Below the pieces are notes generated by a model. That model saw only the letters and a list, made by a program, of their open reading frames with translations, made no database searches and was not told the DNA's origin. From Mesoaciditoga lauensis cd-1655R = DSM 25116 (GTDB taxonomy: Bacteria; Thermotogota; Thermotogae; Mesoaciditogales; Mesoaciditogaceae), in the NCBI RefSeq assembly GCF_000745455.1, contig NZ_JQJI01000008.1, forward strand, positions 1-64,000: DNA of 64,000 nt, written 5' to 3'. The position numbers and the translations under genes were made by a program. Shown one piece after another: positions 31,965-45,840 of this stretch (positions within the stretch are counted from its first letter, which is position 1; each line of letters starts with the position of its first letter).

Positions 31965-33524
31965 TTGAAGATCTTATGGCGTGTGTTAGTATCGCTAATT
32001 GTATTTGTAATGATATACTTCATTTCCATCTACATCTTCTCTCCAGGCGGGCAACCTCTCGAAAGATGGCAATTGTCTTTTGAAGGAAAGAAAGAATTTG
32101 TTCGCATGCCCTTTAAGGTAAAGACAAAACATCCAAAACTGCTGACGTTTACAACCACTTTTGAAGGAAAAGCGGGAGATACGCTCGTTTTTCCGCAAGT
32201 TGATGGTGGAGGGTTTGTTGTTTATTTAAACGGTAAAGAGATCTACCAAACCGGAAATCTCAAAAACGGCACCGCAAACATATGGAATTCCCTCTTTTCG
32301 ATTCCACTTTCGGGTTATTTAAAAAACGGGGAAAATGTGCTAAAAGTAAAAGTCTTCGCTCTTTACAACGGCGGCCTCGCCGCAGCGCCTTACATAGGAT
32401 GGCGTTCGCAAATAGAAAGAAAAATTTTAGCGACGAAGTTTTTGAAATCTCAAATCACTTTGGTTGTTATGGGAATGGCAATAGCCTTAGGTGTGATACT
32501 GACTTCGCTGGCATTTATGGACGATAGAAACAGAAGAAGGTATTTCGTCATAGGAATGGCAGCGTTTTTTATGTCTCTCTACTTAATCGATCTGCAGTAT
32601 TGGAACGTCAGCAACGTTTCAACCTACTTGCTTTTTAGAAAACTCTTCTTGATTTCTTTGTACATGTCCGTTTTTCTTTTCTTTGATGGAATGGAAAGAA
32701 ATTTATTTACGGAATTGAAGCTCTCAAAGCCATTCCTTGCCGTGATGATAGGCGTATCCGTTTGTGTTTTCATTCAGCCAACACCATTTTTGTTTAAAGA
32801 AGTACTGGGAGTGGGAACTTTATTTACCGTTGTATTGATCACCATTTCAGCGATAGAAGTTTACTGGCGGAAAAGGTATGAAATGATTTATCCATTGAGT
32901 TTGAGCATGGAAATCGCGATTTATGCCATTATCCTTGCTCTTAAGGGAAAACCAAACGCCTTTTTGATTCCATATGTGACAATGGCTCTAACTGCTGGTT
33001 TGGGAATAACGCTTGTTAAAGACTACGGCAGAACCTATTCCAACATGCTGATATCTCACAAGGCATCCTTGACAGATCCTCTGACAGGGGCGTTCAACAG
33101 GAATGTTTTAAAAGATTTAAGGCTTTCATCCCAAGATGTGATCGCCATGATAGACATGGATGCATTTAAAAAGCTTAACGACACCTTTGGCCATGAAAAG
33201 GGAGACGAAATGCTTAAGCTCTTTTGTAAGAAGAGTGAAGAGAATCTGAGAACTGGGGATTTCGTGATAAGATACGGGGGAGACGAATTCTTAATGATTT
33301 TGAGAGATTGCACGAGAAAGGATGCTGTTTCCATAGTTGAAAGGGTGAAAAAATCCTTCGAAAAAGAGGCCCTAAAATATAGGGTAACTTTTTCATACGG
33401 TGTCGAAAGGGTGGAAAAAAGCCTCGAGTGGGCTTTGTTAAGAGCTGATTCAAAAATGTACTCTATGAAAGAAAATCTTAAAAAATTCTCTAAGAAAAAG
33501 AGGTCACTCAAGGAATTTAGATAG
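31965..33524 (+). CDS. Membrane diguanylate cyclase with extracellular beta-sandwich and 7TM region
   Basis: This 519-residue protein makes cyclic di-GMP at the membrane. One N-terminal helix is followed by an exported domain of about 130 residues that looks like a carbohydrate-binding-type beta-sandwich (VYLNGKEIYQTGN, LKNGENVLKVKV). Seven hydrophobic segments follow (residues 155-350). The C-terminal GGDEF domain contains intact RYGGDEFL preceded by the RTGD inhibitory-site motif (RxxD five residues upstream), so product feedback inhibition is expected. The start is TTG 31965, seven bases after GAGGAG; GTG 31950 is also in frame. It converges on the DUF6062 gene with a 21-bp overlap. Confidence 0.88.
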   Translation: MKILWRVLVSLIVFVMIYFISIYIFSPGGQPLERWQLSFEGKKEFVRMPFKVKTKHPKLLTFTTTFEGKAGDTLVFPQVDGGGFVVYLNGKEIYQTGNLKNGTANIWNSLFSIPLSGYLKNGENVLKVKVFALYNGGLAAAPYIGWRSQIERKILATKFLKSQITLVVMGMAIALGVILTSLAFMDDRNRRRYFVIGMAAFFMSLYLIDLQYWNVSNVSTYLLFRKLFLISLYMSVFLFFDGMERNLFTELKLSKPFLAVMIGVSVCVFIQPTPFLFKEVLGVGTLFTVVLITISAIEVYWRKRYEMIYPLSLSMEIAIYAIILALKGKPNAFLIPYVTMALTAGLGITLVKDYGRTYSNMLISHKASLTDPLTGAFNRNVLKDLRLSSQDVIAMIDMDAFKKLNDTFGHEKGDEMLKLFCKKSEENLRTGDFVIRYGGDEFLMILRDCTRKDAVSIVERVKKSFEKEALKYRVTFSYGVERVEKSLEWALLRADSKMYSMKENLKKFSKKKRSLKEFR

Positions 33525-34154
33525 CATTTTCCACGCTTGTCCTTCTCTTGAGGTAAGTGGTTCGTGCGAAAATCTGTAATCGCTCTTTCTTATAAATTCT
33601 TCCATATCTTTTTTCAAGCGTGTCAATTTCTCTTTTTGAATTTTCATAAAGATGTTGAATTCAAATCCTTTTATCTCTCTAAGCATGTAAGTGTGCCGTA
33701 GGCATACCATAGATACAGATTGAGCGTATTTTTCCCTTCTATCGGGAAATGAGAAGAACTCGGAAAAAAGTTCAAGGTACCTCCGCTCTGCCTTTTTTTC
33801 AACTTCGCAAAGCTCACATCCATCGCCAAATTTGCCATCTATTTCGTCTAAAGCTTTCTCTATGTAATCAAAAAGATCGTGATAAAGAATGTTCACTCCG
33901 AGTATTCCAAGTTCCGGGTGCGCATTAAGGTGGTTTTCTACCATTTTCAAATGTTTGGGGCAAAAACCATGGCCTTTCACGAAGTTCGTGCGTTCAACCG
34001 GATCGTTCACATTCTCATAAAAGAGGGCATCTATGTAATCGTGAACGGCTTTATCCGTCAACGAGCAGATCGGGCATCCGATCACGTTCATCTTTTCGTC
34101 TATTTGACCTATCAAATACTCGCTTTTGTAATTTTGAGTTTTCTTACTGAACAT
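33504..34154 (-). CDS. DUF6062 family protein with duplicated CxxC-CxxH motif
   Basis: This 216-residue soluble protein is of the DUF6062 type (function unknown). It has two similar halves, each with CxxC then CxxH: CPIC near residue 27 with CPKH near 64, and CELC near 113 with CLRH near 152. Such a pattern could bind zinc or an iron-sulfur cluster. The gene starts only 27 bases after the last gene of the fluoride-riboswitch Ehr operon, on the same strand, and may be its seventh gene. That is notable because the complex itself lacks its usual metal ligands. Confidence 0.75.
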   Translation of the reverse strand: MFSKKTQNYKSEYLIGQIDEKMNVIGCPICSLTDKAVHDYIDALFYENVNDPVERTNFVKGHGFCPKHLKMVENHLNAHPELGILGVNILYHDLFDYIEKALDEIDGKFGDGCELCEVEKKAERRYLELFSEFFSFPDRREKYAQSVSMVCLRHTYMLREIKGFEFNIFMKIQKEKLTRLKKDMEEFIRKSDYRFSHEPLTSREGQAWKMLSKFLE

Positions 34155-40740: not shown

Positions 40741-40774
40741 AAAAAAACCTCCTATCCAGATTTTGGGTAGGAGT
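40741..40774 (-). terminator. Riboswitch expression platform: terminator overlapping ribosome-binding site
   Basis: CTCCTA (40773-40768) pairs with TAGGAG near 40752-40747, with extra CC/GG pairing, and is followed by seven T before the ATG. The 5' side shares bases with the aptamer pseudoknot strand ACTCC, so fluoride binding should block the hairpin. The 3' side is the ribosome-binding site GGAGG, so translation as well as transcription may be controlled. Confidence 0.75.
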
Positions 40775-40816
40775 CATCGGCCTTCGAAGGCTTTACGGCG
40801 AACTCCACCGCCGGTG
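40766..40816 (-). ncRNA. Fluoride riboswitch (crcB motif) of the Ehr operon
   Basis: On the minus strand the aptamer reads GGCGGTGGAGTTCGCC, then GTAAA, GCCTTCGAAGGC and CGATGACTCCTACC. These match the crcB motif: P1 (GGCG/CGCC), the loop-to-3' pseudoknot GGAGT (40806-40802) with ACTCC (40774-40770), and a hairpin GCC/GGC. The conserved GATGACTCCTAC end is present. This RNA family binds fluoride. It lies immediately before the NuoH-like gene. A TATAAT box at 40833-40828 fits a start near 40821. Confidence 0.88.
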
Positions 40817-41042
40817 TTTGTAAAGGATTATACGGAAAGCAAGTTAATTAAAGATTATTAGATATTAAACATTTGTTGTATGCGAATGAATTTTAGCTTC
40901 CCAAGAAAGCACTGCCAACAAAAATATATGGTTCTCATCAGTTTAGTGCGGGTAAAACATGCCGATTCTCTATTCTGTCTGTTGCTGTAGTTCTGAATAA
41001 AATCATTCCAAAATACCCTGTTGTCAAGTGAAAGAACAAGCA

Positions 41043-42689: not shown

Positions 42690-42718
42690 TTGAATCCGCA
42701 TTTCAAAAGTGGTAAAAT
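42690..42718 (+). promoter_or_regulatory. Promoter of the MutS-like operon
   Basis: TTGAAT (42690-42695) and TAAAAT (42713-42718) are 17 bases apart. Transcription would start at about 42725, exactly where the fluoride aptamer begins. Confidence 0.75.
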
Positions 42719-42723
42719 GAGAG

Positions 42724-42771
42724 AAGGAGATGAAGCTCTCCTTTAATGCTGATAGCAGCTGATGGCTTCTG
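42724..42771 (+). ncRNA. Fluoride riboswitch (crcB motif) of the MutS-like operon
   Basis: The aptamer reads GGAGATGAAGCTCTCC, TTTAA, TGCTGATAGCA, GCTGATGGCTTCT. P1 is GGAGA/TCTCC (42726-42730 with 42737-42741). The pseudoknot GAAGC (42732-42736) pairs with GCTTC (42765-42769). The inner hairpin is TGCT/AGCA with a three-base loop. The GCTGATGGC...CT end is as in the Thermotoga fluoride riboswitch. Every element of the crcB fold is present. Confidence 0.9.
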
Positions 42772-42792
42772 AAAAGAATGCCATCATTTTTT
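42760..42792 (+). terminator. Riboswitch-controlled intrinsic terminator
   Basis: TGATGGCTTCT (42760-42770) pairs with AGAATGCCATCA (one bulged T), loop GAAA, followed by TTTTTT. The 5' half contains the pseudoknot strand GCTTC of the aptamer, so ligand binding and terminator formation exclude each other. This is the standard fluoride ON switch. Confidence 0.9.
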
Positions 42793-42821
42793 ATGCGGTG
42801 GAAGAAAAAGGAGGCTTGACT

Positions 42822-44378
42822 TTGGCCTTTGAGAGCATTTTGTTTAAAACATTTAAAACCTCCCAGACAAACGGCAAATTGGAAATGCCAGACTTCTTTC
42901 ATGATTTAAATATAGATCAGATCGTAAACTCGCTTGTGGGATTTAAGGGAGAATACAACTTGAGGGATTTTTTTTACATCATTCCAACAGATGTTGAAGA
43001 GATAAAATATCGCCAAGAGATCATGAAAGATCTGGAAAACAAGAACGTTTTCTCCGTAATAGATGAATTTGCCATGAAGATGCGCAAAAGCCGCCTTTAC
43101 AAATCTTACAGTGATAAACTGACTTTGAATTATCAAAAGGAAAGATGGTTTGTCGATGCGGTAGATGTTTACGTGAAAGCCGTAAAGGAATTGCTTGAAA
43201 GACTGGAAAATGTTGATTTGAAATCTCAAGGGCTTATCCAATTCAGAGAATATTTAGAATCTTATGTGAACTCAAACAAATTCATGGAACTCTTTTCACA
43301 AACGCAAGAAGTCCTTTCAAAGCTTTCCCGCATCAAATACACGCTTTTGATAAAAGAAAACAAAGTTAAAGTTCAGAAATACAATGGTGAAAAAGACTAC
43401 GCGTCTGAAGTCCTGAAAACGTTTGAAAGATTTAAGCAAGGAGCCGTTAAAGATTACACAGTTGAATTCGATGAATCTATGGATATGAACGGTGTTGAAG
43501 AGAAAGTGCTGGACTTGGTGGCAAAGCTGTATGAGGAAGAATTTTCGGATTTGGAAAGATTTTACGGCGTAAATGCCTCTTACATCGATAAAACAATTTC
43601 AAGGTTTGATAGAGAAATTCAGTTCTACGTCACCTATTTAGAATACATAGAGCCATTGAAAAAAGGTGGACTAGATTTTTGTTATCCAGAGTTTACCACT
43701 TCAAAAGAGATATACGCAAAGGATGCTTTTGATTTGGCGCTGGCTTTCAAATTACACAGAGAGAGTTTAAGAGTGGTGAGCAACGATTTTTACTTGAATG
43801 ATCCTGAAAGGATCATAGTCGTTACTGGTCCAAATCAAGGCGGAAAAACGACATTCGCACGCATGTTTGGGCAAGTGCATTATCTTGCAAAGATGGGTTA
43901 CCCCATACCTGCAAGTAAAGCGCGACTCTTTTTGTTCGACAACATATTTACCCATTTTGAAAAAGAGGAAAAGATAGGGAATCTCCGCGGAAAATTGGAA
44001 GACGATTTGATAAGAATAAGAAATATCTTGGATAAGGTCTCTAAAGATAGCATCGTAATAATGAACGAGATCTTTTCTTCCACAACTCTTGAAGACGCGA
44101 AATTTTTAGCCAAAAAAGTCATGGAAGAGATAATGAAAAAGGATTCCATCGCCCTATTGGTCACCTTTATGTACGAGTTATCTGAATTGAATGAAAAAAC
44201 GGTTAGTATGGTGAGCACCGTTTCTGAAACAAATCCAGAGATGAGAACGTACAAGATTTTAAGAAGACCATCGGACGGACTTTCATATGCCGTTTCATTG
44301 GCAAAAAAATACGGCCTCACTTACGAGCAGTTGAAAAAGAGGGTGAAAGATGAAAGTTTTTCTGATGCACGAAGATAA
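42822..44378 (+). CDS. MutS-related ATPase protein 1 (no mismatch-recognition domain)
   Basis: This 518-residue protein has MutS core/lever helices and a C-terminal MutS ATPase domain. Walker A is VTGPNQGGKTT near residue 350, the Walker B region IVIMNEIFSSTT. There is no N-terminal mismatch-recognition domain with its FxE motif, so it is not classical MutS; such MutS-like proteins are known downstream of fluoride riboswitches, with unknown roles. The start is TTG 42822, seven bases after AAGGAGG; the open frame starting at 42762 would begin inside the riboswitch. It overlaps the next gene by 29 bases. Confidence 0.85.
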   Translation: MAFESILFKTFKTSQTNGKLEMPDFFHDLNIDQIVNSLVGFKGEYNLRDFFYIIPTDVEEIKYRQEIMKDLENKNVFSVIDEFAMKMRKSRLYKSYSDKLTLNYQKERWFVDAVDVYVKAVKELLERLENVDLKSQGLIQFREYLESYVNSNKFMELFSQTQEVLSKLSRIKYTLLIKENKVKVQKYNGEKDYASEVLKTFERFKQGAVKDYTVEFDESMDMNGVEEKVLDLVAKLYEEEFSDLERFYGVNASYIDKTISRFDREIQFYVTYLEYIEPLKKGGLDFCYPEFTTSKEIYAKDAFDLALAFKLHRESLRVVSNDFYLNDPERIIVVTGPNQGGKTTFARMFGQVHYLAKMGYPIPASKARLFLFDNIFTHFEKEEKIGNLRGKLEDDLIRIRNILDKVSKDSIVIMNEIFSSTTLEDAKFLAKKVMEEIMKKDSIALLVTFMYELSELNEKTVSMVSTVSETNPEMRTYKILRRPSDGLSYAVSLAKKYGLTYEQLKKRVKDESFSDARR

Positions 44379-45840
44379 GGATTTTGATTTACAAAGGAAA
44401 ATGCCTCAATGGAAAGAAGTCGTTCAAGATCTAGAGTTAAACGTTCTTTTTGATGCAATGGCAAAAGAAGATGATTTCTTTAGGGAAGTTTCAGAAGCAG
44501 CCATCCTTTCTCCGTTATCAGATGTTAAAAGCATCTTGTACCGACAGGAAATTTTAAAAGATTGTTTGGCCAATCCTTCTTTAATAAAGGAAATGTACGA
44601 TATATCTTTGGAGTCTTTTGATGTTGAGAAAAACACCTTCTTCGGTTTTTTCAGCAGGTATCCTATTGGCATGCTTGACAGTTCTGTAAAAGCCATGACA
44701 ATGCTCGTTAAGACGCTTAAAAAACTCCGAAATATCGCAGATGAAAAATCTGGAAAATTCCATTCTAAAGGCTTCAAAAGATTCTTTAACATGGTAAAGA
44801 ATGAACTGAGTGATGAGTATTTTGAAGAAGTTGAGAAGCATCTGGAAACTTTGGAATTCAAAAATGGCATGTTGATAAGCGCTGACCTTGGAATGGGAAA
44901 CAAAGGAGTAAATTACACCTTACGTAAGCCAAACGAAGAGAAAAAACGATGGATTTCTAAGATCTTTTCAAAGAGAGAGGAAGAATTCACCTTCCGCATA
45001 GCTGAAAGAGATCAAAATGGTGCAAAAGCTTTATCTAATCTAAAAGAAAGAGGAATAAATTCCGTTGCAAATGCGCTTACTCAATCCGTCGATCACATTC
45101 TTAGTTTTTTCACCGTCTTGAAAACTGAACTTGCTTTTTATTTGGCCGCGATGAACCTTTATGACTCTTTAGAAAGGTTGGGGGAGCCTTTATCTTTTCC
45201 GGTACCACATGATATTGGAACCTCGATACATGAATTCAAATGTTTGTACGATCCTTCTCTGGCGCTAACCCTAAACAAGAAAGTTATTGGAAATGACCTA
45301 AAGGCAAATGGTAAAAATCTCTTTGTGATAACAGGCGCCAACAGGGGAGGAAAATCCACGTTTTTAAGAAGCATCGGAATTGCACAGTTGATGATGCAGA
45401 GCGGTATTTTTGCTCCCGCAGAACATTTCTCTTCAAGCATATCGAAAAAGATCTTCACCCATTACAAAAGGAAAGAAGATGAAAAGATGGAGAGCGGAAA
45501 ATTCGATGAGGAGTTGAGGAGAATGAATAAAATAGCCACCGATCTCGTGCCGCATTCAATGGTTCTATTCAACGAATCGTTTTCCGCAACGAATGAAATA
45601 GAAGGCTCTGAAATAGCAAAGGAAGTTGTTTTGGCCCTTAAAGAGAAAGACGTTGAAGTGTTTTTCGTCACTCACATGTACGAATTCGCTCATTCCATGT
45701 ATGAAAAGCATTTTGATGATGCTATCTTCTTGGTAGCCGAACGTTTAGAAGACGGCAACCGCACTTTCAAAATAAAAGAAGGAAAGCCTTTGCAAACAAG
45801 CTTTGGTATCGATCTGTACGAGCGTTTATTCGAAAAATGA
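44350..45840 (+). CDS. MutS-related ATPase protein 2
   Basis: This 496-residue paralogue of the preceding protein has the same plan: helical core, then a MutS-type ATPase with VITGANRGGKSTFLRS near residue 330 and MVLFNESFSATNEIEGSE. It also lacks the mismatch-recognition domain. The start is ATG 44350, seven bases after GAGGG, inside the end of gene 1, so the two are coupled and may form a heterodimer, as MutS-family ATPases work as dimers (inference). It is controlled by the same fluoride riboswitch. Confidence 0.85.
   Translation: MKVFLMHEDKDFDLQRKMPQWKEVVQDLELNVLFDAMAKEDDFFREVSEAAILSPLSDVKSILYRQEILKDCLANPSLIKEMYDISLESFDVEKNTFFGFFSRYPIGMLDSSVKAMTMLVKTLKKLRNIADEKSGKFHSKGFKRFFNMVKNELSDEYFEEVEKHLETLEFKNGMLISADLGMGNKGVNYTLRKPNEEKKRWISKIFSKREEEFTFRIAERDQNGAKALSNLKERGINSVANALTQSVDHILSFFTVLKTELAFYLAAMNLYDSLERLGEPLSFPVPHDIGTSIHEFKCLYDPSLALTLNKKVIGNDLKANGKNLFVITGANRGGKSTFLRSIGIAQLMMQSGIFAPAEHFSSSISKKIFTHYKRKEDEKMESGKFDEELRRMNKIATDLVPHSMVLFNESFSATNEIEGSEIAKEVVLALKEKDVEVFFVTHMYEFAHSMYEKHFDDAIFLVAERLEDGNRTFKIKEGKPLQTSFGIDLYERLFEK

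Follow-up and report, generated by a model that had tools for sequence, protein, structure and literature searches.

A fluoride riboswitch upstream of an overlapping pair of minimal MutS-type ATPase genes in Mesoaciditoga lauensis

Among mineral toxins fluoride is a common one, and resistance to it is usually explained by exporters and by spare copies of the enzymes that it inhibits. The fluoride riboswitch reportedly got its name in a 2012 paper. Two years earlier, RNAs of this class (crcB-motif) were placed upstream of "DNA repair (mutS)" and formate hydrogen lyase genes, according to the available portion of Weinberg et al. (2010; PMC2864571). The same RNA class and both gene types adjoin in the stretch analyzed here, 64,000 nt of the thermotogote Mesoaciditoga lauensis cd-1655R = DSM 25116 (contig NZ_JQJI01000008.1, positions 1 to 64,000; this whole stretch is hereafter called the window), where a fluoride aptamer precedes two overlapping genes, A and B, for minimal MutS-type ATPases. 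The riboswitch-mutS association is already known and is not new; the A-B pairing, the overlap, the absent domains and the changed active sites go beyond the "DNA repair (mutS)" label as that portion of the paper gives it. We read A-B, with a probability of about 0.72, as a fluoride-induced, two-subunit MutS-type ATPase belonging to the fluoride-resistance gene set and not to mismatch repair.

Exporters, antiporters, pyrophosphatase, enolase and formate hydrogen lyase all figure in a 2024 review of fluoride resistance (PMC11139923), the accessible part of which contains neither "DNA repair" nor "mismatch". In Enterobacter cloacae FRM, going by excerpts of the original report, a riboswitch-controlled fluoride-resistance operon comprises ppaC, uspA, eno, gpmA, crcB and orf5249, and its role is supported by knockouts and complementation (PMC5533749). 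The gene islands of the A-B pair share with this operon enolase, universal stress protein (Usp), phosphoglycerate mutase, CrcB and a cation-ATPase annotation, whereas the operon's gene list in those excerpts holds neither a MutS-like pair nor a dynamin-like gene. In the open-license literature we found nothing that describes the pair, the overlap or the changed active sites, and subscription papers may say more; no open-license full text treating a fluoride riboswitch together with MutS or mismatch repair was found either, the combination of crcB, MutS and riboswitch giving just PMC2864571. The pair is an uncharacterized variant of the MutS fold, standing behind a riboswitch class, and in an association, that are both known.

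The riboswitch and its association with the pair

In the Rfam search of the window, the fluoride aptamer model RF01734 matched positions 42717-42778 (+) with 40.7 bits (cut-off 34, E 7.8e-8), a match that takes in P1, P3 and the pseudoknot. P1 is formed by GGAGA and TCTCC (42726-42730/42737-42741) and the pseudoknot by GAAGC and GCTTC (42732-42736/42765-42769), both read from the sequence and both as given in a preliminary description of the locus. When 14 aptamers, each either preceding an A-B pair or lying beside one and facing away, were aligned, the pseudoknot was paired in 100% of the cells, and three of its five pairs were compensatory on both sides; over the whole aptamer 88.3% of the cells were paired, with P3 at just 64% in a part where the alignment is rough. 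Because of the pseudoknot covariation, a chance match is unlikely.

The terminator hairpin (42760-42792, +), recognized from sequence and folding, has 11 bp with a one-base bulge, a GAAA loop and a run of six T residues (arms 42760-42770/42775-42786, T6 42787-42792). The expression platform overlaps the aptamer, since 42765-42769, the 3′ strand of the pseudoknot, belongs to the terminator 5′ arm as well; this strand being common to both, the two folds are mutually exclusive, which bears out the earlier proposal. The aptamer/terminator region folds better than its shuffled versions (z −3.3), 2 of 200 of which fold equally well. A simple terminator scan missed the hairpin of the window, probably owing to its bulge, and in the relatives terminator-like hairpins were counted for 46 of 67 against 474 of 1340 shuffled sequences (35%), a crude test in which several of the 46 anchors are wrong (e.g., at position 12) and in which one locus is doubled, L050 and L035 being the same contig. 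Sigma-70-like sites were at chance level (10 found vs. 8.7 expected). The anatomy and the known riboswitch class suggest fluoride-ON transcriptional control: on binding of fluoride and Mg, the aptamer pseudoknot would take up a strand that the terminator requires, and A and B would be transcribed.

Gene A (42822-44378, +) encodes 518 amino acids and gene B (44350-45840, +) 496, both identified as minimal MutS-type ATPases by Pfam, alignment and structural model. The likely start of A is the TTG at 42822, which lies 7 nt past a GGAGG ribosome-binding site (42810-42814, +; read from the sequence and scored) and is aligned with the starts of its relatives. The ATG at 42762, which would give the longest open reading frame (ORF), is an unlikely start, as it falls within the aptamer and terminator.

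Across Thermotogota, A was present in 17 of 103 genomes, and an aptamer lay directly upstream in 14 of the 17 pairs, 12 at the Rfam cut-off and two (L036, L038) by model R1; among the remaining three loci, one contig begins within the gene (L010), one gene is degenerate (L019), and for one no aptamer was found (L020). Aptamers occurred in 16/17 pair-bearing Thermotogota genomes vs. 32/86 others (p 1.7e-5) and, among 299 genomes drawn evenly from Bacillota, the phylum of Thermoanaerobacter wiegelii, in 13 of the 14 with the pair vs. 106/285 others (p 3.8e-5), kinship being ignored in both comparisons. Ten of 15 Bacillota A genes had the aptamer directly upstream. In one Thermotogota family (f10), half of the genomes (7/14) carry the pair: the aptamer was detected in 6/7 of these and in 0/7 of the others, and each of the six has a single detected aptamer, directly before A-B. 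Beyond these two phyla, a scan of public genomes returned pattern matches of which, among those listed, 573/593 encoded a relative; in the best 80, a same-strand aptamer lay ≤700 nt upstream in 53 (E up to 0.01), and 15 more had one elsewhere in the stretch, for a total of 68/80 by hand count. The pair is a widespread part of the fluoride-switched gene set and, in one bacterial family, its only detected unit.

Architecture, active sites and relationships of the two proteins

MutS_V was the sole Pfam family above cut-off in both proteins (E 1.8e-22 in A and 9.3e-22 in B), and neither the mismatch-recognition nor the connector domain was matched in either at E up to 1, so that the earlier picture of a coupled pair that keeps the MutS ATPase and lacks mismatch recognition is supported. 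Judging from the starts of the relatives and from structural alignment, A and B both begin at the equivalent of MutS domain III; Pfam gave no Smr match and no KOW domain in either, and little sequence follows the ATPase. AlphaFold2 models built from 43-row alignments (pLDDT 84.3 and 84.8, pTM 0.81 and 0.83 for A and B, respectively) align nearly full-length to MutS, MSH2 and the MutS2 core, with Z 23-28 for A and 24-31 for B and rmsd 3-10 over 300-470 residues. We read each protein as built of three parts, namely a lever, a small clamp and the ATPase. A search for a solved structure of a close relative (37 sequences) gave just chains of MutS, MSH and MutS2. The median pI is 5.8 over 61 A and 6.1 over 72 B proteins, which makes both acidic, and their N-terminal parts carry a net negative charge.

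In the window proteins Walker A reads GPNQGGKT in A and GANRGGKS in B, and in all the aligned rows (43/43 A, 43/43 B) the Walker-B Asp is replaced by Asn, with the next Glu kept (NE). At the conserved His that follows Walker B, A has Phe (VTF) and B keeps the His (VTH), each invariant over its 43 rows. The NE motif was among the criteria by which the public-genome scan picked A genes; the Thermotogota and Bacillota sets were gathered without it, and the motif was present there in 15/15 Bacillota and 14/14 readable Thermotogota A proteins and in 14/14 and 14/14 readable B proteins, respectively, the reading covering 15/15 Bacillota and 15/17 Thermotogota loci (L005 and L010 were left out). At the His position of B in these sets, one protein has ITY and another gave no pattern match. 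Among the nine MutS1, MutS2 and KamC proteins compared, the His is kept in all and Walker B is DE in eight, the ninth giving no pattern match. The predicted Mg site is altered in both subunits, and the predicted catalytic site is asymmetric; that both sites are changed, each differently, fits an obligate A-B heterodimer.

The available part of a study of E. coli MutS indicates that residues 693-696 steady Mg-bound waters and that substitutions there accompany loss of ATPase activity and repair (PMC3848065). The natural change of the pair resembles the engineered D693N of that protein, whose mutant structure (3k0s) is among those listed in the fold comparison, and makes the role of a MutS clamp that does not read DNA directly testable. 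The preliminary description had suggested fluoride-related inhibition of Mg-dependent nucleic-acid enzymes as one possible reason for fluoride induction, an idea that the evidence gathered here neither favors nor counts against; the altered Walker B at the pair's own Mg site is a more specific lead.

One rival reading follows the 2010 label: A-B would repair or remodel DNA (e.g., recombination intermediates) damaged under fluoride. The MutS ATPase homology and the position of MSH and MutS at the top of the fold ranking speak for such a role, and some MutS homologues do work outside mismatch repair. We nevertheless regard it as quite improbable: both proteins open at the equivalent of domain III, with the recognition and connector domains unmatched, they carry Asn at an Asp in a region where substitutions in E. 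coli MutS accompany the loss described above (PMC3848065, same part), and among the recurrent neighbors that could be named there are ion transporters, GTPases and enzymes of glycolysis but no repair genes. MutS1, MSH2-MSH3 and MSH2-MSH6 share the MutS_V ATPase fold with A and B, and the eukaryotic proteins are heterodimers; unlike them, A and B have no domains I and II, and their Walker B has the Asn of D693N. Membership in MutS1 was rejected, with 79.2 bits for A and 68.6 for B against the TIGR01070 cut-off of 641.7, the recognition and connector domains being unmatched.

A role like that of MutS2, in which the A-B clamp would open or split ribosomes or RNA stalled under fluoride, is unlikely in our view, if less so than DNA repair. 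Mg-dependent phosphoryl chemistry is generally inhibited by fluoride, and the lever-plus-ATPase arrangement, which has no mismatch-recognition domain in the MutS2 core either, matches that core (7vuf, 7vuk, 9kce, 9a5o) with Z values near 25-31 across the greater part of each model. In contrast to MutS2, the pair consists of two different genes, with an Asn in Walker B and neither Smr nor KOW found in proteins of such length; MutS2 forms a separate clade, the acidity of A and B and the net charge of their N-terminal parts count against the role, and the 20 neighbor representatives that were named include no ribosome gene. The MutS2 model TIGR01069 gave 78.1 bits for A and 67.0 for B against a cut-off of 400, and with no Smr the assignment to MutS2 was also rejected.

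In a tree of 45 ATPase domains, A and B are two sister clades joined with 100/99 support, and MutS1 and MutS2 lie outside them; the branches of KamC and L049_A are long. The overlapping gene pair was found in many bacterial phyla and in a few archaeal bins, with 48-57% identity to the window protein for 42 A relatives and 45-62% for 42 B relatives; the extraction dropped four loci (L117, L120, L123, L128) in which Walker A differs from the exact motif. With starts set by the ribosome-site rule, B overlaps the end of A by 4 nt in 66/84 pairs, and the 29-nt overlap of the window (44350-44378) is longer than usual. The heterodimer put forward in the preliminary description gains indirect support from the conserved gene overlap, the sister clades and the asymmetric active sites: the coupling of the two genes stands, and the complex itself is best called probable. 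Overlapping genes would yield matched amounts of two sister subunits, A and B would assemble into a heterodimeric ATPase clamp, and the complex would serve fluoride tolerance. One genome already holding a pair has a second, diverged A-B-like pair (L141, G109:C53), both genes of which fall within the A and B clades.

Gene neighborhood and possible function

The neighborhood was surveyed by clustering 1331 ORFs from 97 loci, with the doubled locus noted above counted here too, and by scanning 20 representatives against Pfam. Over the 80 public loci, the commonest neighbor was a dynamin-like GTPase (20 loci; a second dynamin cluster occurs in 5, with possible overlap), followed by enolase (17), a transporter of the major facilitator superfamily (MFS; 15), Usp (10), a Na+/H+ exchanger (10), CrcB (9), an ABC ATPase (8), DUF190 (7), a CLC channel (6), phosphoglycerate mutase-like protein (5), P-type ATPase (5) and pyrophosphatase (4). 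At least one gene from a chosen list of fluoride-set families, dynamin included, was present in 49/80. No same-strand gene lies ≤200 nt downstream of 43/76 B genes, which indicates that A-B is often its own unit.

In another rival reading, A-B would work at the membrane with the GTPase and with ion pumps, limiting the entry of HF or mending membrane damage. The GTPase and the pair both follow fluoride aptamers; most loci, however, have no dynamin gene in the examined stretch, and the models, in which no membrane part was seen (none was specifically sought), align nearly full-length to soluble MutS proteins, so that we hold this to be very doubtful, more so than DNA repair. The dynamin-like GTPase is itself the first gene after a fluoride aptamer in six cases (e.g., L052 11346, L082 5960, L093 4247), and a full-text search of the open-license literature found no paper on a fluoride riboswitch with dynamin. 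In one genus a transketolase-like gene directly follows B (L041 12950, L042 12943).

The least probable explanation, with very little in our view to recommend it, is that A-B is a mobile passenger of fluoride islands with no direct fluoride role. The distribution is patchy across phyla and a few copies are interrupted, as such a passenger might show; against this, the pair often stands alone behind its own aptamer, as the 43/76 B genes indicate, it is the only detected fluoride-switched unit in family f10, and identity to the window proteins stays at 45-62% in relatives from other phyla.

For the activity of the proposed fluoride-induced ATPase, our preferred guess, a tentative one, is that the A-B clamp may grip and remodel a fluoride-disabled protein or complex so that it works again, as a "reactivase". 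We are led to it by the absence of parts that read nucleic acids, the acidity of the proteins, neighbors that are enzymes and pumps and not repair genes, and the precedent in the name of KamC (NF052383), a stand-alone MutS-like ATPase of ~500 amino acids called "lysine 5,6-aminomutase reactivase ATPase" by NCBI. A ribosome role like that of MutS2 is the strongest rival to this guess. A more detailed and slightly more doubtful version would have a dedicated reactivase reset, by ATP hydrolysis, an enzyme or complex locked by Mg-fluoride (e.g., enolase, pyrophosphatase or a phosphoryl-transfer machine), with the Asp-to-Asn change loosening the clamp's own Mg site and so sparing the clamp from trapping by Mg-fluoride-ADP.

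Several observations weigh against the fluoride-tolerance reading or the KamC precedent. For one Thermotogota pair (L020, of genome G086) no aptamer was found; 27/80 public loci have no direct aptamer, and 12/80 have none in the examined stretch, a hand count in which some stretches are short. In three Thermotogota loci (L006, L017, L019) the A gene is interrupted; the pair is dispensable there, or these are assembly errors. Membership in KamC, one of the few families that NCBIfam returned for the pair, was rejected: the cut-off is 300 bits and A reached 62.5 and B 77.1, scores no better than those for MutS, and KamC, on its long separate branch, keeps both the Asp and the His (DE and ATH), unlike A and B.

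Other fluoride elements in the window and the genome

A second aptamer (40761-40821, −), missed in the preliminary description, faces away from the pair and scores above the one that precedes it (Rfam, 44.4 vs. 40.7 bits). It heads a hydrogenase-4/complex-I-like operon running from 40740 to 34182 (−), whose hydrogenase-4/formate-hydrogenlyase-like genes (NuoH-, HyfE-, HyfF-, NuoD- and HyfB-like) were named from NCBIfam matches below the cut-offs. Its switch region reads CTCCTA...TAGGAGGTTTTTTT ahead of an ATG and could, from its sequence, both terminate transcription and mask the ribosome-binding site.

In the genome as a whole, no CrcB match was found and one CLC-family channel is present. 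A third, sub-cut-off aptamer (27.8 bits) lies on another contig (C22:31374-31435; L003 1501-1562, −), with its own terminator-like hairpin and then a gene for a MoxR-type AAA ATPase; in family f1, this gene is preceded by a similar aptamer in 5/9 tested loci. Downstream of the hydrogenase-like genes of the window lies a gene for a DUF6062 protein (33504-34151, −), a domain that in one fluoride island is fused to a dynamin-like GTPase (L082 10779-12878).

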